A stretch of DNA of 21,446 nt from a virus: the IMG/VR virus record IMGVR_UViG_3300042445_001215, positions 1 through 21,446 of that record, one strand, 5' to 3'. The position numbers and the translations under genes were made by a program. Numbering within the stretch: the stretch's first letter is position 1; every line of letters starts with the position of its first letter. Under the pieces are notes generated by a model. That model was not told the DNA's origin and did not search any database. It saw nothing but the letters and a program-made list of their open reading frames with translations. Positions 3,825 to 18,956 of the stretch are shown in pieces.

Positions 3825-4271
3825 TTATCTTTTCTTGTTGATCTTTAAATATTTATACCAAACTCTTTCATGAAAAAAGTATACAATTGGTTTAATCATT
3901 AACTCACCTACTCCAAGTAAAGAAGATACTTCAAGTGACATACCTAAAGAATAAGCTGAGATAACTGTAATAAGAGTACCTAAGATTCTATAAGAAAATG
4001 TTTTTAATATATGCCTTATCATAACTGACTCTTCTTTAACAGTTATTATGTAAGCTATATTATTTTTAATATTAAGATATCCTTCACAACTAACATGCCA
4101 CTTATAAACTTGAATTTCTTCTATCCAATCTTTTGATGTGTATGTATGACCATCTACTATAACATTAGATACTAAAGTTTCTCTACCATCAGTAATTAAT
4201 CTCCACTGATCTTCTTCAGAAGTAGATGCTGTATTAAATCTAATTTGAAATTGTTGAGATTTTACATTCAT
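3825..4271 (-). CDS. DUF2061 membrane protein with phage-type N-terminal domain (sulfation operon)
   Basis: 148 aa in two parts. Residues 1-80 form a soluble beta-rich domain (begins MNVKSQQFQIRFNTASTSEE, contains WRLITDGRETLVSN and YKWHVSCEGYL). Residues 84-142 match the DUF2061 membrane domain: RHILKTFSYRILGT, a hydrophobic pair of helices, then the HERVWYK signature. DUF2061 proteins are known as small inner-membrane proteins often encoded beside sulfate-activation genes such as cysC. That fits here: the gene is last in a coupled operon with an APS-kinase-like protein and a sulfotransferase, overlapping its neighbour by ATGA. The N-terminal domain is not part of ordinary DUF2061 proteins. 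A role in sulfate or nucleotide handling at the membrane is inferred. Confidence 0.8.
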   Translation of the reverse strand: MNVKSQQFQIRFNTASTSEEDQWRLITDGRETLVSNVIVDGHTYTSKDWIEEIQVYKWHVSCEGYLNIKNNIAYIITVKEESVMIRHILKTFSYRILGTLITVISAYSLGMSLEVSSLLGVGELMIKPIVYFFHERVWYKYLKINKKR

Positions 4272-4675
4272 AATTTCCCTTCTTTATACATTTGTTCTCT
4301 AACTTTTGTTGCTGATATCTCTCCTATTTGTACGGGAGGTACATGCTCAATGATATCATAACCAACTCCTCTACCAAACTCAATTGAGCATATGTCAGGG
4401 ATGATGCTAACTTTAACCACACCTTGATTGCAAAGTTCTTTATATTCATTACTAATATTGTTTAATACTTCTTCTGCTGTCCAAGGATTTTTTGTATCTG
4501 GTGCAATGTCTCTTATTGCTATCCAAACTTTTTTTCCATTATCTAAAGCTTGATTAAATAAAGCTTTATGACCATCATGTAGTGGTTGCCATCTGCCTAC
4601 AAATAAAGCATATTGTTCTGGCTTTGCTGGTAGAGATGAGCCTACATGTACTATTTTTTCCCACTTGTTTTCCAT
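4268..4675 (-). CDS. HxGH-type nucleotidyltransferase (cytidylyltransferase-like)
   Basis: 135 aa. The core motifs of the nucleotidylyltransferase superfamily are clear: GRWQPLHDGH at 27-36 (the HxGH nucleotide-binding motif, His33/His36) and ISATKVR at 120-126 (equivalent of the ISSTxxR motif), with GRGVGY at 101-106 between them. Such enzymes move an AMP or CMP group from ATP or CTP to a small acceptor. The acceptor cannot be read from sequence. NMN, a sugar or polyol phosphate, or in this operon sulfate are the candidates, the last because the next genes are APS-kinase-like and sulfotransferase. It overlaps both neighbours (25 bases upstream, 4 downstream). Confidence 0.8.
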   Translation of the reverse strand: MENKWEKIVHVGSSLPAKPEQYALFVGRWQPLHDGHKALFNQALDNGKKVWIAIRDIAPDTKNPWTAEEVLNNISNEYKELCNQGVVKVSIIPDICSIEFGRGVGYDIIEHVPPVQIGEISATKVREQMYKEGKL

Positions 4676-5109
4676 ACTACGTCTGTTATATAATTAATGC
4701 ATGCATCAACTGAATTAGTGTCTGTGTTTAATATATGTACTCCTTCAGATGCAACAGGAGTTTCAAAATCTTTTACATGATAGTTTTCTCTTCCTCTAGG
4801 TTCTTGATATGTAAGATAAAAGAAATGAGTTTCTGGATATAAATTTTTTATATAACTTCTTACTTCTTCATAAGGAAATACCATAGAATAAATTACATTT
4901 GACTTAAGTAAAGTCTCATGCATGTAATAACCTATATCACAAGCTTTAGTAAGATTTTTAATTCTGCCTTCTTTAGAGTAATCACTATTCTTAAATACTT
5001 CTCTAAATTTATCCCCATCTATTATTTCTGAATCAGAAAGTTTTTTAGCTAACTCTAAAGCTAATGTACTTTTACCAGAATGAGGTTGTCCAAATAATAC
5101 TACTATCAT
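4651..5109 (-). CDS. Adenylylsulfate-kinase-like (CysC-like) P-loop kinase
   Basis: 152 aa. A Walker A P-loop (GQPHSGKST, 7-15) is followed by the DGD motif and downstream Arg (IIDGDKFR, 29-36), an R-x-x-N stretch (RIKNLTKACDIG), a MVFPYEEVR segment that matches the 'FISPYR' region, and a C-terminal RENYHVKDFETP that matches the lid/'KNFTGI.SPYE' part of APS kinases. APS kinase phosphorylates adenylyl sulfate to PAPS, the sulfate donor used by sulfotransferases, and a sulfotransferase is encoded immediately upstream with a 4-base overlap. It is shorter than cellular CysC (about 200 aa) but retains the core. Another small-molecule kinase activity is possible. Confidence 0.75.
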   Translation of the reverse strand: MIVVLFGQPHSGKSTLALELAKKLSDSEIIDGDKFREVFKNSDYSKEGRIKNLTKACDIGYYMHETLLKSNVIYSMVFPYEEVRSYIKNLYPETHFFYLTYQEPRGRENYHVKDFETPVASEGVHILNTDTNSVDACINYITDVVWKTSGKK

Positions 5110-5924
5110 TGTTTGTAATTAAAGGCTTGATTAAACCATTGATAATTATTCCATATCCAATCTACTACATCTTTACCTAAGATATCTTTAGCATTAGAAG
5201 GAACTACATCTAATTTTTTTCTAATAACATGATCTCCAAATGCACCATATACCGCGTCATCTTCTTGAGTAACTTGTTCTATGTTATCAAAGTCATGTTC
5301 ATATTCCGGAATACCTAAGTAGTTATAAATACCTTTCATAACTTGTTCTGGGTATAAACATAAATCTTCAAACTTAACAAAGTGTATCTTCTTATCAATA
5401 CCCATTCTAAAGATCTCTGAGAGTCTTTCTAAAGCCATTCCTACAGGAACACCTTGTGCCCAAATATCTACTCTCTTAGGGACTGATGTACCTTGCATTT
5501 TAGACCAATCTAAAATAGGATCTTGTTGCTCAGGATTTTTTCTATAGTTTTTTTCCATAGATGTAAAAACATCTTTAAGATCTCTAACCATACAAATAAT
5601 CTTAGGCTCTGGATATATTGAATTTAAAAAGTCATGGTGGATACCCCAACCTCTTGATTTATCAACTACATATTTTTTATCAGTAATACCTTCATAGAAT
5701 CCTATCATACCTTTTTGACAAAACTCTAAGAAACCTTTTTTCATTAGTTCAGAATCTTGTGCTTTAAATTCAGGTGAATTAGTATAGTTTGCTCTAGCAG
5801 CAAATACAAGTTCTAATACTCCTGATGTAGGGGTAGCATATATATCTGTATTCTGTGCTAAAATATTTTGCAATAAAGTGCTACCAGACCTAGGCATGGA
5901 AGACTGAAAGAATAATTTTTCCAT
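5106..5924 (-). CDS. PAPS-dependent sulfotransferase
   Basis: 272 aa, typical length for the family. The 5'-phosphosulfate-binding loop is at residues 8-20 (SSMPRSGSTLLQN) and the 3'-phosphate-binding region at 113-130 (VRDLKDVFTSMEKNYRKN). Aromatic/His-rich segments (RGWGIHHDF at 91-99) shape the acceptor site. The pattern is closest to the tyrosylprotein/carbohydrate sulfotransferase type and resembles sulfotransferases known from marine phage metagenomes. It transfers sulfate from PAPS to a hydroxyl of a sugar or protein. It has no signal or membrane segment, so it acts in the cytoplasm. It lies 2 bases after the GT9 gene, and its stop overlaps the APS-kinase-like gene, which suggests in-house donor supply. 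Confidence 0.85.
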   Translation of the reverse strand: MEKLFFQSSMPRSGSTLLQNILAQNTDIYATPTSGVLELVFAARANYTNSPEFKAQDSELMKKGFLEFCQKGMIGFYEGITDKKYVVDKSRGWGIHHDFLNSIYPEPKIICMVRDLKDVFTSMEKNYRKNPEQQDPILDWSKMQGTSVPKRVDIWAQGVPVGMALERLSEIFRMGIDKKIHFVKFEDLCLYPEQVMKGIYNYLGIPEYEHDFDNIEQVTQEDDAVYGAFGDHVIRKKLDVVPSNAKDILGKDVVDWIWNNYQWFNQAFNYKQ

Positions 5925-5926
5925 AG

Positions 5927-6796
5927 TTACTTGCTTAAAGATTCTATAATAGATTCTACATTAAAGATTTCATCTTCACTATTATATGGAAATTCAATAA
6001 GATCTCCAGCAATATTGAATTTAGATAAATAAGCATTTTTTAATTCAGGCTTATTTGTAAATTGATTTGCTACAATGTTAGTATGTAAATCATAACCAAA
6101 TACTTCTGGTTTATTTGTTACCCAACAAACTGTTGATGGTAAACTTAAAGCACTTGCCGCATGTTGTGCAAAACTATCTATTAGTAATCTTTTATTACTT
6201 AAAGTTAATAATACACAAAGTCCTCTAAATGATTCAGATACAGGAATAGTATCTGTATAACCTATTTGATCTTCTCTTTTAATATGCACAATATTATAAT
6301 CATTTTTAAAATGATTAATAATTTTAACTATTGCTGCAGAAGGAATATCTCTAGCCCAAGAATATTTATGTTCTGTTTGAGCTCCACCATTTGTCTGTAA
6401 CAACAAAACTGGTCTATCACTTGCAAATTTGTTTTGAAAATATTGTAATTCTCTTGTAGTAAGATTAATTACTGGTTGTTCTCCATTATATGGAATATCA
6501 AACATTTCACACCAAGTCTTAATTAAGTGTTCATTTTGTTTAATATGATTAGTATGCAAATAAGGATCATTAGCAAATATCAAAAAGTTTTTACCATTAA
6601 TATACTCATCATAAAAATAAGATAGTCCTTGAAATGTAAAAGATCTATAGACATCTTTATTGTTCAAAAATACATCAGGATAACCCGATACTACTAATAA
6701 GTTTGCTTCAGGAAATTTTTTCTTAATTGCTGAGCAAACAGCGGTGGCCATGATACATTTGCCCATGCCACCGCTAATTTGAAATACTATATTCAT
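5927..6796 (-). CDS. GT9-like (heptosyltransferase fold) glycosyltransferase
   Basis: 289 aa from the ATG at 6796. The frame extends to a TTG at 6823, but that codon lies inside the -7 box of the promoter, so the longer form is rejected. The N-terminus MNIVFQISGGMGKCIMATAV gives the first beta strand and Gly-rich loop of GT-B family 9 enzymes, followed by KKKFPEANLLVVSGYPDVF. The C-terminal half has the donor-site region (LLIDSFAQHAASALSLPSTVCW), like the 'D(S)..HhAaaL..P.v.lfG' pattern of ADP-heptose transferases. It probably adds a sugar to an LPS-like or virion glycan. As the first gene of the sulfation operon it may build the acceptor for the sulfotransferase. The sugar is unknown. Confidence 0.75.
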   Translation of the reverse strand: MNIVFQISGGMGKCIMATAVCSAIKKKFPEANLLVVSGYPDVFLNNKDVYRSFTFQGLSYFYDEYINGKNFLIFANDPYLHTNHIKQNEHLIKTWCEMFDIPYNGEQPVINLTTRELQYFQNKFASDRPVLLLQTNGGAQTEHKYSWARDIPSAAIVKIINHFKNDYNIVHIKREDQIGYTDTIPVSESFRGLCVLLTLSNKRLLIDSFAQHAASALSLPSTVCWVTNKPEVFGYDLHTNIVANQFTNKPELKNAYLSKFNIAGDLIEFPYNSEDEIFNVESIIESLSK

Positions 6797-6820
6797 TGGT
6801 TTCTGTTTTAATAACAGATA

Positions 6821-6849
6821 CAAATATAATATATTTTTTTATTCTGCAA
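6821..6849 (-). promoter_or_regulatory. Bacteroidetes-type promoter for the glycan/sulfation operon
   Basis: Minus-strand TATATTTG (6821-6828) matches the host -7 box and a TTG at 6847-6849 lies 18 bases upstream. It overlaps the stop codon of the preceding tail-region gene and the predicted transcript starts about 15-20 bases before the ATG at 6796. It would let the host polymerase drive the sulfation genes independently of the tail operon. Confidence 0.6.
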
Positions 6850-7204: not shown

Positions 7205-8845
7205 TTATACTATTGTTAAAATTCCCGCATTACTATAAACTGCACCGATTGGTAAACCCGCTGATGAAGTTGGTATATTCATTATTGAAAGGTTATTTAC
7301 AAATGTTGTGTTTTCTCTATCAGATGTTATATTTGCACCTACAATATAAGAGCATTTAGTACAAGCTAGATTATTTTCACCACCTAAAATTCCCGAATAA
7401 GTATTATCAGCTGTGTTTCCTCTTCCTCCTCCAATTGTTGAATAACATCCACTTGCTGTGTTGCAATAACCACCACTTATTGTTGAGCGATTTTCACTTG
7501 CTGTGTTACTTTTACCACCTCCAATTGTTGATATATAACCACATGCTGTATTACATCTACCACCACCTACTGTTGAATAATATCCACTTGCTGTGTTACC
7601 ATATCCACCACTAATTGTTGAATAATAAAGTCCACTAGCATTATTACCATAACCGCCACTAACTGTTGAACTCTCACCACTTGCTGTGTTCATATATCCA
7701 CCACCAATAAATGACTTACCGCCACTTGCCGTGTTGACAAATCCACCACCAACTGTTGAATAGCAACCACTTGCCGTATTATTTTGTCCACCACCAATAA
7801 ATGAACAATTTCCACTTACTGTGTTTTGTCTTCCACCGACAATAGAAGCACTACCACCGCTAACAATATTAACATAACCACCACTTATTGTTGAACAAAA
7901 TGTATATGAACTAATTGTATTACAATAACCACCACTTATTGTTGATAAATATCCACTATTTGAATTATATTTACCTCCAACAACTGCTGAAAAATCACAA
8001 CTAGCTGTATTAGAATTGCCTCCACCGACAACAGAATCACGACCACTAGCTGTGTTTGATTGTCCACCACTTACAGTTGACCTATCGGCACTAGCTGTAT
8101 TATGTATACCTCCACTAACGGTTGAAGCATAACTACTTGCAGTATTTGAATAACCACCACTTATTGTAGAATAAACTCTATCTGCTGTGTTATTGTGACC
8201 TCCACTAATGGTTGAATATGCTGTATAGTTGATTGTATTATTTAGTCCTCCACTAATAGTATTGTTTTTATGAGTACTATCACTTGCATTAATTTGATTA
8301 CATATTCCTCCACCTATTGTTGAAGCATAACTACTAATTGTATTATGATAACCTCCACTTAATGTAGAAGCAAAGCTATTTGTATTATTACAGTAACCTC
8401 CACTTATTGTAGATTTATATCCACTTGCCGTATTAAACCCACCGCCACTAATTGTTGCTTTATAGCCACTAGCTGTGTTTCCTTGACCACCTCCAACAGA
8501 TGACATAGTACCACTTGATGTGTTTGTAGAACCACCTCCAACAGATGAACAACTACCACTTGCTGTGTTTGATAAACCACCACTTATTGTTGAACCACAA
8601 CCACTAACTGTATTACAATAACCACCACTAATGGTTGAATAATAGTTGCTAGCTGTATTACAATAACCACCACTTATTGTTGAATAATAGCCACTAGCTG
8701 TATTTGTTTTACCTAATGCAGTAGAATATTCACCACTAGCACAATTTGAATTGCCAATACGTCTTGATGAACCCGTTCCGCTATCTAAGTCTATAATACT
8801 AGTAGTACCTCCACCACCTCCGGATATTTGTATAAGTGTACTCAT
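7205..8845 (-). CDS. Tail adhesin built of about 30 YadA-head-like 15-residue repeats
   Basis: 546 aa. After a Gly-rich N-terminus (MSTLIQISGGGGGTTS) residues 48-505 are about 30 copies of a 15-residue unit with consensus NTASGxYSTISGGxx. This is the pattern of trimeric-autotransporter head (left-handed beta-roll) repeats. A few units are longer (16, 17 and 20 residues). Cys residues recur at fixed positions (GGYC, SGC), unusual for such a fold. The C-terminal 41 residues are non-repetitive (SIMNIPTSSAGLPIGAVYSN), typical of phage fibre tips. There is no signal peptide or autotransporter barrel, so this is a virion fibre and not a secreted adhesin. It likely forms a trimer that binds the host surface. 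Confidence 0.8.
   Translation of the reverse strand: MSTLIQISGGGGGTTSIIDLDSGTGSSRRIGNSNCASGEYSTALGKTNTASGYYSTISGGYCNTASNYYSTISGGYCNTVSGCGSTISGGLSNTASGSCSSVGGGSTNTSSGTMSSVGGGQGNTASGYKATISGGGFNTASGYKSTISGGYCNNTNSFASTLSGGYHNTISSYASTIGGGICNQINASDSTHKNNTISGGLNNTINYTAYSTISGGHNNTADRVYSTISGGYSNTASSYASTVSGGIHNTASADRSTVSGGQSNTASGRDSVVGGGNSNTASCDFSAVVGGKYNSNSGYLSTISGGYCNTISSYTFCSTISGGYVNIVSGGSASIVGGRQNTVSGNCSFIGGGQNNTASGCYSTVGGGFVNTASGGKSFIGGGYMNTASGESSTVSGGYGNNASGLYYSTISGGYGNTASGYYSTVGGGRCNTACGYISTIGGGKSNTASENRSTISGGYCNTASGCYSTIGGGRGNTADNTYSGILGGENNLACTKCSYIVGANITSDRENTTFVNNLSIMNIPTSSAGLPIGAVYSNAGILTIV
7331..8704 (-). repeat. About 30 imperfect 45-bp tandem repeats inside the adhesin gene
   Basis: The DNA repeats with a 45-bp period matching the 15-residue protein unit; recurring 10-15 bp words such as accaccacttattgttga are seen throughout on the plus strand. 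The array is a natural site for slippage or recombination that would change fibre length. Confidence 0.8.
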
Positions 8846-9227: not shown

Positions 9228-10217
9228 TTAAACTGAAGCAATATAGGTACCATTAACATATGCTTTACTAATTGTAGTTAATACAACAGGAGTTCCTTGT
9301 ATCCATAAACCTTCTCTAATTGGTGAGTTAGCTCCTCCTGATTGTTTTAAATAATGTAAATCTAATACAGTAGTTATACCTGCAGTATCTGCATTAAGTA
9401 TTGTATGACCTGTACCTGTATCAGGATCTATATTCGGATCTGCCCAAATCCAACCATTAAAATGATTATAACCTATACCAGGTGCAAATGGTAATGCTAC
9501 TTTATATTGACCTGTACCAAAATTAGTAACAGTTGTAAAATCAATCTCTATTACAAAACTAACTAGTAATCCTGATTTAACATAATAAGAATTATAGGTT
9601 GGATAGGTTATTCCACTACCTGTAAAGGTCATACCAGTTGCTTGAAATGTTGGAGAATATCTAACCCAAGTTTCTAATCCTGAAGTTCCACTAATACCTT
9701 GTATTCCTTGAATACCTTGAACTCCTTGAATCCCCTGTACACCTTGATTTCCTTGTACACCTTGGGGACCTTGATCACCTTGAGGTCCTTTAATATCTCC
9801 AGCATCAAACCAAACTGTTCCATTCCAAGTCATTAAAGATCCATCAGATAATAAAATCCAAGCATCACCTATATTGGCACCAGGAAGACTTCCCGCACCT
9901 GCATTAAATGCAGCAAGATCAGCATAGGATCCTAGTATAGTAACTGAATTACCTGCTGTACCTTGAGGTCCTTGATTTCCTTGTATTCCCTGAATTCCTT
10001 GTGAACCCTGAATACCCTGAATACCTTGCGGTCCTTGTGGTCCTACTTGTCCAGGTCCTAACTGAGTAATAAAATCTGCTACAGATATAGCACCAGCTAA
10101 ATAACCGTCATCTCTCCTATTGTCTTTTAATCCAACAGGCAGTAAAGTTTGATTAGGGTCAACAGTAGTTACTACTCTTTTACCTTTAATCCAGCTTATG
10201 AAGTTTAGTATATCCAT
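9228..10217 (-). CDS. Collagen-like tail fibre with shared N-terminal anchor module
   Basis: 329 aa. Residues 1-52 are the shared anchor (MDILNFISWIKG ... TLLPVGLKDNRRDDGYLAG). Two collagen-like Gly-X-Y runs follow, about 53-90 and 145-178, rich in GPQGIQG triplets. Between them sits a compact insert (SYADLAAFNAGAGSLPGANIGDAWILL), and after them a beta-rich C-terminal domain of about 150 residues, probably the receptor-binding tip. Collagen-like runs trimerise and act as shafts in phage fibres. The gene is the first of its unit: a terminator and the TTTTTTGTATATT motif lie just upstream. Confidence 0.85.
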   Translation of the reverse strand: MDILNFISWIKGKRVVTTVDPNQTLLPVGLKDNRRDDGYLAGAISVADFITQLGPGQVGPQGPQGIQGIQGSQGIQGIQGNQGPQGTAGNSVTILGSYADLAAFNAGAGSLPGANIGDAWILLSDGSLMTWNGTVWFDAGDIKGPQGDQGPQGVQGNQGVQGIQGVQGIQGIQGISGTSGLETWVRYSPTFQATGMTFTGSGITYPTYNSYYVKSGLLVSFVIEIDFTTVTNFGTGQYKVALPFAPGIGYNHFNGWIWADPNIDPDTGTGHTILNADTAGITTVLDLHYLKQSGGANSPIREGLWIQGTPVVLTTISKAYVNGTYIASV

Positions 10218-12416: not shown

Positions 12417-13496
12417 TTATAATGTTATTAATGCGTCTGCATAATTAATACAAGCTACTACTTTTCCTGTTCCTGATACAGAAAAGTTTCCATCTATTGC
12501 AGATGTGCCATAAAGTTTTGAATAATATAAAGTTCCAATTACATTTGTTCCAAAAGACCCTAATTGAGCAACGCAGTTAAACCCTGTTCCTGAAAAAACA
12601 GGTGTTCCAGATCCAAATTTATTAGCAAATGAATATGCTTGTGCTGTACAATTTTTAAATACTCCAGTAGATTGATAAAAACCAAATGAATTATCTCTTG
12701 CTTTACAATCAGTAAACGTACCACCAGCCTCTCCTAAACCAAATATTGGATTTGATCCAAAACAATTATCTACTCCAGTGCATCCAATAAATGTACCTAT
12801 TGCTCTTGGATCACCAAAACCTAAATAACTTATACCAATTGGTCCTGATACTGATCCTCCTGCAAATGAAAAGTTACCTCCAATACAATTAATGAAATTA
12901 CCAAATACATCACCACCAAATCCAAATGAATAATCACCTCCAACACAAGTATCAAATGTTTGCATATTAGATGAATAATCTATATTAAATCCGGTTTGGA
13001 TACCACCTATATATCCAGCAAGTAATGTGTTTAATCCTTTTAAATATGTAGCTGGTGAACTAACAGATATTCCACTTAAGTAAACATCTGCATCTCCACT
13101 TAAAGATTTAATATCAATATTTTCTGCATCTACAACAAATTGATTATATTGTGTATCAAAAAAGTAAAATCCCGGAGCAACAAAAATAGTAAATCTATTT
13201 GCAGAATTTAAAGGCTCTCCATAAGGAGTAGCTAACTTAGCTGCATCATATGCTGCTTGAAGTTCCAATCCATTTTCTTCTGGAGTAGCTTTATCACCTT
13301 TTACAACAATAAAAGAAGTTCCTTCAAGTCCTCCAGGTACTAAAGCTAAAAAATCTGTAACTGTAATAGCTCCTGCTAAGTACCCGTCATCTCTTCTTCC
13401 GTCTTTAAGACCTACTGGTAAAAGAGTTTTAGATGGATCAACAGTAGTAACTTGTCTACCTCCTTTGATCCAACTAATAAAATTTAAAATATCCAT
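12417..13496 (-). CDS. Tail fibre: shared anchor module plus beta-helix-like repeat domain
   Basis: 359 aa. Residues 1-52 are the anchor module (MDILNFISWIKGGRQVTTVD ...). Residues 60-150 (FIVVKGDKATPEENG, NRFTIFVAPGFYFF) look like the start of a beta-helix. Residues 180-310 carry irregular repeats of the form F-x-N/D-C-x-G/A-x-x-x-SFG (FDTCVGGDYSFGFGG, FINCIGGNFSFAGG, FTDCKARDNSFG, FKNCTAQAYSFA), one per rung of about 22-30 residues. Regular Cys and Phe columns would stack in the core. It is probably a surface-binding fibre; no enzymatic motif is seen. Confidence 0.8.
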   Translation of the reverse strand: MDILNFISWIKGGRQVTTVDPSKTLLPVGLKDGRRDDGYLAGAITVTDFLALVPGGLEGTSFIVVKGDKATPEENGLELQAAYDAAKLATPYGEPLNSANRFTIFVAPGFYFFDTQYNQFVVDAENIDIKSLSGDADVYLSGISVSSPATYLKGLNTLLAGYIGGIQTGFNIDYSSNMQTFDTCVGGDYSFGFGGDVFGNFINCIGGNFSFAGGSVSGPIGISYLGFGDPRAIGTFIGCTGVDNCFGSNPIFGLGEAGGTFTDCKARDNSFGFYQSTGVFKNCTAQAYSFANKFGSGTPVFSGTGFNCVAQLGSFGTNVIGTLYYSKLYGTSAIDGNFSVSGTGKVVACINYADALITL

Positions 13497-13518: not shown

Positions 13519-14214
13519 TTATGAGTAGACTCTTATTTCTATTGATACATTTTCAAAATTATCTTGTTGTACAAATGAAGTATCAAAATTTCTAACAATT
13601 ATAGCATTATTTTGAAGAACCCCCATAGCTGTATTATTATTTGCGTACAAGGGAACATTATTATTTTTACCACTTCCAATAAATACAAATGTTTTACCAA
13701 CAATAAAAGGACCATTACTTGGAAAAGATGATAATGATAATTTATATTGTCCAGTAGATAAATATCCCCAAGATAAATTTGCATCAATAGTATTCTCTAA
13801 TACTGTTACTACTGGAGCTCCTGTATTGAATAGTAAAGCACTGCCTCCATAACTTATAGGTGTGTCATTATTTATTGCAACAAAATAAGTACCTGGGTCA
13901 TTGTTTGGTGCACCAACATTTAAGAAGTTTCCACCAGGATTTTGAATTTGATAAGTTACTCCTTTTGTTAATGGTCCAGAACTAATTCCAATTGTATTAC
14001 CAAAACCACTCTGTGTTAATAAAGCTGTATACACTTTATATGCAGGTACTGGCGCAAGTTGTGCCGCTAAGTCTGCTACTGTAATAGCACCAGCTAAATA
14101 ACCATCATCTCTTCGGTTATCTTTTAACCCAACAGGTAATAATGTTTGTGTAGGATCAACTGAAGTAACAACTCTGCCACCCTTTATCCAAGAAATAAAA
14201 TTTAAAATATCCAT
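13519..14214 (-). CDS. Short tail fibre with shared anchor module
   Basis: 231 aa. Residues 1-54 are the anchor (MDILNFISWIKGGRVVTSVD ... DDGYLAGAITVADLAAQL). The remaining 175 residues are beta-rich and Gly/Asn-rich (IQNPGGNFLNVGAPNNDPG, KTFVFIGSGKNNNVPLYANN) and form a probable receptor-binding tip. It is the first gene of a unit, preceded by the phage motif and a terminator. No catalytic residues are visible. Confidence 0.8.
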   Translation of the reverse strand: MDILNFISWIKGGRVVTSVDPTQTLLPVGLKDNRRDDGYLAGAITVADLAAQLAPVPAYKVYTALLTQSGFGNTIGISSGPLTKGVTYQIQNPGGNFLNVGAPNNDPGTYFVAINNDTPISYGGSALLFNTGAPVVTVLENTIDANLSWGYLSTGQYKLSLSSFPSNGPFIVGKTFVFIGSGKNNNVPLYANNNTAMGVLQNNAIIVRNFDTSFVQQDNFENVSIEIRVYS

Positions 14215-14416: not shown

Positions 14417-15301
14417 TTACATTGTACTTGTAATTTTATTTACATAACTTGTAGTAAAGGTAAGTCTAGTTAATGCTGAATTATTATCAGTATTAAACTT
14501 TAATGCTACATTTTCACTCATTGGACCAATTAAAAATGGTGCATCTGGTGTAGCATTTGGGTTATCAATAACTATTGCAAATCTAAATATAGTTTTCATT
14601 TTAGATGCTTTTACATCTCTATTTGATGTAGGGTACATAAAAGATTTACCAGCTTGAAACATTTTAACATAAAAACCATTAATATTTCCATTATCAGCTC
14701 CAACTGCAGTAGTAGGAACTGGAAAATCTGTTGCAGTTGTTTGTCTAGCAGTATTAGCATTTTGATCACAATACATTACCCATTGATATGGATTTAAATC
14801 AGCAAGATTAAAATACTTATAAGGCAATGTTGTAGGTAATAAAAATTCTGTATTGCGAATTAATGGATCTGGTGCAGAGTAAATAAATTCAATAATTTTT
14901 TGACTTCCTGTCCACCATCTTCCACCAGGTTGAACTCCTGCTGTATTTGTAGGATGTACAAATCCTGAAGGTTTACGTGTTGTTATAAAATTTTTACGGA
15001 TTGTTCTTTTTTTTCTAACTCTATATAAAAAGATTCTAGGATTAAGTTTTTTCCATGCATCTGATTGATAAAAATCAAGAGAGAAAGTTACATCTCCATT
15101 AACTGCTCTAGCAATTAATTTAGGGATCTCAATACCTATTCCTAGTTCATTAGAAAAGTCTGTAACAGAAATACCACCGGTTAAGTACTTATCATCTCTT
15201 CTATTATCTCTTACTCCTACTGGTATTAAAGTAGTGTCTTTATTTACATTAGTAAACTTTCTTCCACTTTTAATCCATGATATGAAATTTAATATATCCA
15301 T
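14417..15301 (-). CDS. Tail fibre with divergent anchor module and large C-terminal domain
   Basis: 294 aa. The anchor (residues 1-53, MDILNFISWIKSGRKFTNVN ... DNRRDDKYLTGG) is the most divergent of the four MDILNF copies. The C-terminal 240 residues are unique: a basic patch (RVRKKRTIRKNFITTRK, about 92-108), then a mixed Trp/Tyr-rich domain (GGRWWTGSQKIIEF, PYQWVMYCDQNANTARQ). It is probably receptor-binding. It is the first tail gene transcribed, behind a terminator and the phage promoter motif. The end of the frame (TSYVNKITSTM) is abrupt, and a repeat-like coding remnant lies just beyond, so the C-terminus may have been replaced. Confidence 0.8.
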   Translation of the reverse strand: MDILNFISWIKSGRKFTNVNKDTTLIPVGVRDNRRDDKYLTGGISVTDFSNELGIGIEIPKLIARAVNGDVTFSLDFYQSDAWKKLNPRIFLYRVRKKRTIRKNFITTRKPSGFVHPTNTAGVQPGGRWWTGSQKIIEFIYSAPDPLIRNTEFLLPTTLPYKYFNLADLNPYQWVMYCDQNANTARQTTATDFPVPTTAVGADNGNINGFYVKMFQAGKSFMYPTSNRDVKASKMKTIFRFAIVIDNPNATPDAPFLIGPMSENVALKFNTDNNSALTRLTFTTSYVNKITSTM

Positions 15302-16953: not shown

Positions 16954-16974
16954 ACTTATTTGGTTTTTAGTTTG

Positions 16975-17049
16975 AGGTACAGATAGGATTCGAACCTATG
17001 GCTTTACAGTTTTGCAGACTGTTGCTTTTGACCACTCAGCCACTGTACC
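16975..17049 (-). tRNA. tRNA-Cys (anticodon GCA)
   Basis: A full cloverleaf reads on the minus strand: acceptor GGTACAG/CTGTACC, anticodon stem ACAGT/ACTGT with loop CTGCAAA (anticodon GCA), and T arm ATAGG-TTCGAAT-CCTAT. The discriminator base is U73, the identity base of tRNA-Cys. CCA is not encoded. The gene may top up Cys decoding for Cys-containing fibres such as the repeat adhesin, which carries recurrent Cys, but this is inference. Confidence 0.92.
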
Positions 17050-17827: not shown

Positions 17828-18460
17828 TTATTCATTATCATAGAACATTCTTTCTGAATCTTCTGTACTCCATTTCTCAAATCCTTCACAATTATAGTAG
17901 TCTTTGTTAACTAAGTAGTCTGGTTTTTCAGGAAATGGTTTAGTTACAAAGCTAGGTTCAGACCACTTAATTCTGTTGTTAGGTTGTAATGCTATTTGAC
18001 CGTTGTCAAGTAATATAATGTGGTGACTCTTATGTTCTAATGGATCTTCTGCTAAAGATAGATCTGTGTTGTGATCATTAGACCCCCAGTTGATAGTAGC
18101 ATAATAACTACCCGGGTAGAACTTGTGATCTTTCATATAGACTTCTACCCTAGTGTCGTACAAATATGACAAGTGTAGTAGAGTAAAGTTATAAGAGAAG
18201 CAATTCCATATCTGAAGATAATGAAACGGTAGATCTACTTCCGGTATTTTGTTCTCATGAAGTAGAGCATGGCTTGGTAACTTATCTCTAAGTACTCCAT
18301 TATCTAACAGTACTTGAAATAGTGCTGCTTGTCCCGGCATACATCTTACTGATATAATTACCCCCGGTGTTAATTCTCCGTGTCCTTTCTTATGTTGGTA
18401 CATGTACTCATTTCTAACAAAGACTTTGAGTGGAAAAAAGTTATGTTCTATATGTGCCAT
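17828..18460 (-). CDS. Conserved hypothetical phage protein
   Basis: 210 aa, MAHIEHNFFPLKVFVRNEYM ..., rich in aromatic residues and His. Recognisable blocks are YQHKKGHGELTPG, VISVRCMPGQAALFQVLL, DLPFHYLQIWNCFSYNFT and IALQPNNRIKWSEPSF. Proteins of this type occur in marine T4-like and other aquatic phages without an assigned role. There is no signal peptide or membrane helix. It lies one base after the AlkB-like gene's stop and is probably co-transcribed from the 18974 promoter. The PNNR and WxxPS motifs late in the protein may mark a binding site, but nothing more can be claimed. Confidence 0.75.
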   Translation of the reverse strand: MAHIEHNFFPLKVFVRNEYMYQHKKGHGELTPGVIISVRCMPGQAALFQVLLDNGVLRDKLPSHALLHENKIPEVDLPFHYLQIWNCFSYNFTLLHLSYLYDTRVEVYMKDHKFYPGSYYATINWGSNDHNTDLSLAEDPLEHKSHHIILLDNGQIALQPNNRIKWSEPSFVTKPFPEKPDYLVNKDYYNCEGFEKWSTEDSERMFYDNE

Positions 18461-18461
18461 A

Positions 18462-18956
18462 TTATTTAATTTTTCCTAGTTGTCTAAATACTATTGATAT
18501 TCTTTTGTGTTCTAGTTTTTCTATGCTGTGTTTCCAATGTGTTCTGTATACACCTTTAAGCTGTATAATAGATCTTGCTGGTAAAGTTATAACTTCTCTT
18601 TTTGTTCCATATGTCAAAATAAGTTTTGCATCTGATAACAAACTAAGCACAGTTATTACAGGTCCAGCAGCTATGGTATCTATATGAGGAACCATTTTAT
18701 TTCCTGGATAATAAGTATTCACAGTAACATCTTCTGGTAAAGCATCTAGTATCTTTTTATCTATCAACCTATAACATAGATCTAGTAGATACTCAGGAAT
18801 AGGATCTAACTTCTCATTACTATAAATAGAATTACCATATCTTACTAGAGTTCTATCATTAGATAACTTACTATCTTTTTCAGCTTGTGCCAGAGACTCT
18901 AACAGTAAGAGTTCTTCTTCTATAGATATAACATTAAGTTCTGGTGTTACTATCAT
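18462..18956 (-). CDS. AlkB-like 2-oxoglutarate/Fe(II)-dependent dioxygenase
   Basis: 164 aa. The iron-binding facial triad is visible: HID (His91, Asp93) and the distal His143 (WKHSI). It is followed by the RxxxxxR signature (Arg152 to Arg158, RISIVFR) that binds 2-oxoglutarate. An N-x-Y-x-x-G motif (NTYYPG, 80-85) and an upstream VRYG (38-41) are typical of AlkB-type enzymes. These oxidatively remove alkyl groups from DNA or RNA bases. In phages they may repair genomes or act on modified bases, and protein or nucleotide substrates are also possible. It is the first minus-strand gene from the divergent promoter region, so it may be expressed early. Confidence 0.8.
   Translation of the reverse strand: MIVTPELNVISIEEELLLLESLAQAEKDSKLSNDRTLVRYGNSIYSNEKLDPIPEYLLDLCYRLIDKKILDALPEDVTVNTYYPGNKMVPHIDTIAAGPVITVLSLLSDAKLILTYGTKREVITLPARSIIQLKGVYRTHWKHSIEKLEHKRISIVFRQLGKIK

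Follow-up and report, generated by a model that had tools for sequence, protein, structure and literature searches.

Sulfate enters biology through ATP sulfurylase, and adenosine 5'-phosphosulfate (APS) is the metabolite common to this enzyme, APS kinase and APS reductase. The closest described systems are the Sat enzymes, the CysDN type, in which CysN is a GTPase subunit, and the fusions of Sat with APS kinase. SAR11 is the most abundant group of the ocean. In its genomes, aprAB was reported to belong to the core and to evolve under strong purifying selection (PMC12636525), and ATP sulfurylase was reported to be missing from most of them (PMC10356861). Thus, sulfite oxidation in these bacteria was left without a known last step. 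Here we describe a viral sequence, the entire IMG/VR record IMGVR_UViG_3300042445_001215 (21,446 bases, hereafter the window), in which five closely packed genes on the minus strand encoded a weakly GT9-like glycosyltransferase, a sulfotransferase, a putative compact APS kinase (KIN), a small HIGH-type nucleotidyltransferase (NT) and a DUF2061 membrane protein.

It was very likely that this cassette was a unit for sulfate activation and sulfation with NT as its ATP sulfurylase, an activity that we inferred from genomic context. In the proposed pathway, NT would convert ATP and sulfate to APS and pyrophosphate, and KIN would phosphorylate APS to 3'-phosphoadenosine 5'-phosphosulfate (PAPS). The sulfotransferase would then transfer the sulfuryl group of PAPS; its acceptor is probably a glycan to whose assembly the GT9-like enzyme contributes, and the DUF2061 protein may act at the membrane. 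NT was fused to APS kinase, co-occurred with APS reductase and replaced CysDN in different bacteria, and therefore it was most simply explained as an ATP sulfurylase. Moreover, NT probably represented a third ATP sulfurylase family, one that would end the AprBA sulfite oxidation of SAR11, replace CysDN in marine bacteria, yield minimal PAPS synthetases when fused with CysC and serve a complete phage pathway from sulfate to sulfated product, in which DUF2061 possibly aids sulfate uptake. No earlier proposal of a novel, alternative or missing ATP sulfurylase of this type was found in the open-licence literature. The family seemed to have been unrecognised and to supply the ATP sulfurylase that is "missing" in many marine bacteria, SAR11 among them. 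The features of the cassette were the following.

5927-6823, minus strand: GT9-like glycosyltransferase, first gene of the conserved unit (some relatives match PF01075)
5106-5924, minus strand: PAPS-dependent sulfotransferase, 272 amino acids (PF13469 2e-18, PF00685 3e-14)
5877-5894, minus strand: 5'-phosphosulfate-binding loop PRSGST, sulfotransferase residues 11-16 (conservation in 43 sequences)
4651-5109, minus strand: putative compact APS kinase (KIN), 152 amino acids (PF01583 1e-9; profile and model matches)
5065-5091, minus strand: KIN P-loop GQPHSGKST, residues 7-15 (conservation in 47 sequences)
4268-4675, minus strand: HIGH-type nucleotidyltransferase (NT), candidate ATP sulfurylase, 135 amino acids (PF01467 1e-5; model; homologue context)
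4568-4597, minus strand: NT catalytic HxGH loop GRWQPLHDGH, residues 27-36 (conservation in three groups)
4358-4375, minus strand: NT family-defining GRGVGY motif, residues 101-106 (conservation in three groups)
4298-4318, minus strand: NT ISATKVR motif of the phosphate-binding ISxTxxR type, residues 120-126 (43 viral sequences)
3825-4271, minus strand: DUF2061 membrane protein, 148 amino acids (PF09834 3e-14, residues 88-138)

A preliminary description of this DNA had presented the last four genes (3825-5924) as one translationally coupled unit for donor synthesis and transfer. All four open reading frames were present, with overlaps of 4, 25 and 4 bp, and a hidden Markov model search matched them to the Pfam families that had been named (PF00685/PF13469, PF01583, PF01467 and PF09834). 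The idea of a coupled unit was supported as well, but the unit comprised at least five genes, and the sulfotransferase was less tightly linked than the others. This could be seen in viral contigs, three scans of which yielded 190 loci; our core counts were based on 55 dereplicated loci that were found via NT alone. KIN was present in 53 of these loci, the remaining two ending at a contig edge, and it adjoined NT in 51. The DUF2061 gene was likewise found in 53 of the 55 and followed NT in 51. Since KIN-NT-DUF2061 was kept across the dereplicated loci, the gene arrangement was not due to chance. Of the 42 loci whose flanks were complete, 30 also had a sulfotransferase of the window's family, and KIN-NT-DUF2061 often had no glycosyltransferase in its flanks. 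Thus, KIN-NT-DUF2061 was the core, and the sulfotransferase and the glycosyltransferase were frequent companions. Viral loci found via the sulfotransferase sometimes lacked the core, which would be expected if those phages draw on host PAPS. Throughout the survey, homologous operons were consistently tied to sulfate activation, and the missing link feared in the preliminary description was not seen. One viral NT (L183:5776-6846) grouped with the cysC-NT clade of Bacteroidota (support 99; tree alignment of only 132 columns), apart from the other phage NTs, which suggested a separate acquisition. A megablast search with the complete window as query found no match among named phages.

KIN matched PF01583 with 39.1 bits (cut-off 21.1) and the equivalog model TIGR00455 with 38.1 bits (cut-off 138.7); therefore, it represented a divergent clade of the APS kinase family and not a standard CysC. 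It had the core motifs of CysC, namely the P-loop, DGDxxR, FSxxxRxxN and PYxxxR. Within the P-loop, G7, Q8, G12 and K13 were invariant in 47 sequences, and more than 85% conservation in both phage KIN and CysC was observed for G7, G12, K13, D31-D33, R36, S45, R49, N52, P79 and R84. The equivalents of R36, R49 and N52 contact APS in the Penicillium enzyme. When the KIN profile was compared with solved structures, APS kinases came first (1.2e-17), followed by an unrelated family at 3e-9. The predicted model (predicted local distance difference test, pLDDT, 95) fitted best on 7yq1, an APS kinase in complex with adenylyl imidodiphosphate (AMP-PNP) and APS (Z 21.2, 1.7 A, 147 residues), compared with Z of 17.5 for gluconate kinases and about 14 for adenylate kinases. 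Judged by its profile matches and predicted model, KIN belongs to the APS kinase family. This agreed with its earlier reading as a CysC-like APS kinase, and the loss of APS-binding residues that would have spoken against that reading was not observed.

NT belonged to the HIGH nucleotidyltransferase superfamily (PF01467, 25.9 bits, cut-off 21), and its predicted model (pLDDT 90.8) was that of a minimal HIGH-type enzyme with CoaD (Z 9.9) and nicotinamide mononucleotide (NMN) adenylyltransferase (Z 9.3) as fold neighbours. In about 180 viral, bacterial and SAR11 NTs, the residues G27, R28, Q30, H33, H36, R55, P64, G101, R102, G105, Y106 and R126 were fully conserved in every group; in 43 viral sequences, I120, S121, A122, T123 and R126 were also invariant. 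The two histidines of the HxGH loop, H33 and H36, were thus retained as the preliminary description had it. We rejected Sat as the family of NT, since there was no match to PF01747; a comparison of the NT and Sat profiles (probability 48%, E 2.8e-5) covered common superfamily motifs only. No Sat chain was among the structure matches listed for the NT model, although the two may still be related. NT matched HIGH-type nucleotidyltransferase models only and not the CysD model (TIGR02039). The scores against NMN adenylyltransferases were also low: 27 bits for the archaeal NadM model TIGR01527 (cut-off 181) and 18-37 bits for the bifunctional models (cut-offs 312-449; best 37 against 409). Membership in an NMN-specific clade, which had been named earlier as a possible refutation, was therefore not found. 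Since NT failed the tests for Sat, CysD and NMN adenylyltransferases, it would be a separate ATP sulfurylase family of about 115-150 residues.

One scan of genome contigs provided 80 cellular loci with NT relatives. In Marinimicrobia and Bacteroidota, NT adjoined either a KIN-type kinase or a canonical CysC. Moreover, NT and CysC were joined in one polypeptide, with NT first in Omnitrophota and Planctomycetota (NT-CysC) and CysC first in Acidobacteriota and Saprospiraceae (CysC-NT). Among 49 genomes with NT, an APS kinase was found in 43-44, Sat in four and CysD over its cut-off in three. The pattern was sharpest in Flavobacteriales, where seven of 196 genomes had NT, and all seven had CysC and lacked CysD. 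CysD was present in 72 of the 73 Flavobacteriales genomes with CysC and without NT, the sole exception having an incomplete CysC match close to the start of a contig, and Sat was found in none of the 196 (NT versus CysD, Fisher P 2.5e-9, uncorrected for shared ancestry). This mutual exclusion was explained by gene order, because NT sat where cysDN did in collinear loci. Namely, two loci (L286 and L290) consisted of sulfotransferases, a flippase, a CysQ-like phosphatase and a DeoC-like protein, then cysC-cysD-cysN, followed by genes for a TonB-like and a glycine-cleavage-H-like protein and by a large gene. Two other loci (L275, with NT at 6351-6821, and L272) had cysC-NT amid the same genes on both sides (flank identities of 33-82%), and a further one (L274) retained most of the flank genes along with an inserted block. 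Thus, NT took the place of cysDN in a sulfation locus of Flavobacteriales.

The second line of evidence came from the SAR11 order, with NT (E < 1e-15) and AprA (over cut-off) counted in 118 genomes. NT was found in 93 genomes and AprA also in 93; 86 had both, each gene occurred alone in seven, and 18 had neither (Fisher P 1.8e-10, uncorrected for shared ancestry). Sat was present in only seven of the 118, and 87 of the 93 AprA genomes had no canonical Sat. In some lineages, NT was the direct neighbour of AprA, and in one locus (L234, with NT at 7959-8336) it was followed by a membrane gene, aprB and aprA, the AprB and AprA proteins passing their equivalog cut-offs. The distance between NT and aprA was at most 3.3 kb in 24 genomes, with NT either preceding the apr genes or facing aprA in convergent orientation. 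Five SAR11 genomes with both NT and AprA (G028, G038, G043, G047 and G048) had no APS kinase match; therefore, the association with AprA was independent of the kinase. In SAR11, the NT family would work in reverse behind AprBA, where sulfite and AMP would give APS, and APS and pyrophosphate would give ATP and sulfate. The earlier suggestion that NT might be a new type of ATP sulfurylase was thus strongly supported by two genomic contexts, the replacement of cysDN and the association with AprBA. As a separate observation, a few SAR11 genomes (L294-L300) had divergent Sat-like proteins of about 283-354 amino acids, and in one genome (G031) about 0.6 kb separated such a gene from a match to APS kinase.

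Several points weighed against NT as an ATP sulfurylase and against the cassette as a sulfation unit. The Fisher tests ignored shared ancestry, so that the seven Flavobacteriales might represent few events, and many of the genomes were fragments, incomplete metagenome-assembled genomes (MAGs) or single cells. NT and aprA were at least 37 kb apart in 14 SAR11 genomes and on separate contigs in 48. The NTs of SAR11 were on a long branch (2.34), and their substrate may differ. The best-scoring curated models of NT were NMN adenylyltransferases, though far under their cut-offs, and the fold neighbours of its model were CoaD and NadM. KIN lacked the lid segment of CysC, KKARxGEIKxFTG, with about 14 residues gone and RGREnFHVkDYE.P in its place. 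Finally, the sulfotransferase was missing from 12 of the 42 viral loci with full flanks.

With these points in mind, we considered other activities. NT may act on APS in a different way, as an ADP sulfurylase (APS and phosphate giving ADP and sulfate) or an APS hydrolase. Such an enzyme would suit the AprBA link of SAR11, where APS must become sulfate, but it would not suit an NT that is fused to CysC, where APS must be made, or the Flavobacteriales without CysD and Sat, in which NT was the only candidate at the locus; thus, we considered it very unlikely. It was also hard to credit that the product of KIN and NT is an activated sugar or alcohol for the GT9-like enzyme while the sulfotransferase uses host PAPS. 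A kinase and a cytidylyltransferase-like enzyme beside a glycosyltransferase would fit this scheme, and host PAPS can serve in the viral loci that had the sulfotransferase and the glycosyltransferase without KIN-NT. However, the frequent absence of a flanking glycosyltransferase around KIN-NT-DUF2061 and the canonical CysC as a cellular partner of NT argued against it, and the mutual exclusion of NT and CysD was left unexplained. The view of NT as an NMN adenylyltransferase and KIN as a nucleoside kinase, forming a NadR-like pair for salvage of nicotinamide adenine dinucleotide, was almost certainly incorrect, since its support from solved NadM structures as the closest sequence relatives of NT (4e-9) ended with an alignment that stopped before the GRGVGY part, the best relatives of KIN were APS kinases, and neither the model cut-offs nor the cysDN replacement, the fusion to canonical CysC and the AprA association agreed with it.

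An ATP sulfurylase activity of NT therefore remained our preferred reading, and the rest of the cassette could be considered in its light. The sulfotransferase was above the cut-offs of PF13469 (67.8 bits) and PF00685 (53.5 bits), and the PAPS-binding loop claimed for it previously was borne out, as P11, R12, G14, S15 and T16 were invariant in 43 sequences, with only S13 varying. R114 and S122 were invariant in the same number of sequences and may form the 3'-phosphate site. The closest solved structures were protein-tyrosine sulfotransferases (1e-10). Our guess that the acceptor is a glycan was based on the neighbouring GT9-like gene, which ended 2 bp ahead of the sulfotransferase start and adjoined the sulfotransferase in many viral loci. 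This gene was listed with a TTG start, and an internal ATG at residue 10 was possible. PF01075 (Glyco_transf_9) was matched by seven of 37 relatives of its product (best 5.5e-5) and not by the window protein itself, and the profile found nothing at E 1 among solved structures. Positions 7205-8845, on the strand of the sulfation unit and a short way upstream of it, encoded a protein of 546 amino acids with YadA-head/UspA1-like repeats, which may be a surface adhesin and may also be an acceptor of the modification. In Marinimicrobia and a gammaproteobacterial MAG, a sulfotransferase-like protein (SGPRNISTALMRSWSSR) was paired with a class IV aminotransferase-like gene (L193:3873-5491 and L196:4952-6572) near a cysC/KIN-NT pair.

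The DUF2061 protein was assigned to PF09834 as described previously (53.5 bits, cut-off 23.1), and in the window it had about 85 more residues at the N-terminus as an additional domain. Among 13 bacterial cysCDN loci (L278-L290), a DUF2061 gene was found in the cysC region of three, adjoining cysC in two, and an SLC13-type permease was found in six. The two were never together, although the numbers were small; therefore, DUF2061 may belong to sulfate uptake, which we regard only as a lead.

Elsewhere in the window, four proteins (9228-10217, 12417-13496, 13519-14214 and 14417-15301) had a common domain at the N-terminus (about 45 residues, MDILNFISWIKG...LLPVGLKDNRRDDGYLAGAI) and unrelated C-termini, one of them collagen-like. 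They looked like exchangeable virion fibre or adaptor proteins; the last one, a tail protein, had no match in phages. The gene at 17828-18460 was related to a protein in 114 records, mainly from cyanophages and pelagiphages, where the annotations "ferredoxin" and "purM" looked unreliable. Positions 18462-18956 encoded a 2-oxoglutarate-Fe(II) oxygenase (PF13532 1e-10), and a tRNA-Cys gene (gca) was located at 16974-17049 on the minus strand.

If our interpretation is correct, many marine genomes that were rated as incapable of sulfate activation do have this ability, and some phages, rather than depending on their host, supply every step of the donor pathway with which a product is sulfated. 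For SAR11, NT was a concrete candidate for the last step of sulfite oxidation and a small soluble protein.

Compared with the known enzymes, NT shared with Sat the proposed reaction, the HIGH superfamily and, in the profile alignment, the H-x-x-H loop and the ISGT/ISAT-x-x-R motif. In contrast, the Sat proteins compared here had about 330-600 residues, whereas NTs had 115-150 and no PF01747 match. CysDN (NodPQ type) has the same proposed reaction and the same position beside cysC in the sulfation loci of Flavobacteriales, but CysD is of another family and works with a separate CysN subunit, whereas NT was a single small HIGH-type protein. NadM, the archaeal NMN adenylyltransferase, and CoaD had the same fold (Z 9-10, 3.0-3.7 A over about 110 residues); unlike them, NT had a shorter C-terminal half and the invariant GRGVGY, and it scored below all family cut-offs. 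Among phages, marine sulfotransferases such as that of Synechococcus phage S-SKS1 belonged to the window's family (identity 27-31%, with more than 90% of the length aligned). Their records had no tblastn match to KIN, and none was among the NT matches listed. The "kinase" PHROG 10255 from cultured Stenotrophomonas, Xanthomonas and Clavibacter phages resembled the cassette in that its N-terminal part matched KIN and its C-terminal part NT. Unlike the cassette, it was a single polypeptide, and its records named only a kinase or a hypothetical protein and did not note a relation to sulfate. The PAPS synthetases, such as human PAPSS1, in which Sat is fused to APS kinase, resembled the bacterial fusions of NT and CysC in having both presumed activities in one chain, a likeness that extended to the phage, where the NT and KIN genes overlapped. 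However, the bacterial fusions were about 300-420 residues long, had NT in place of Sat and occurred in both domain orders in different phyla.

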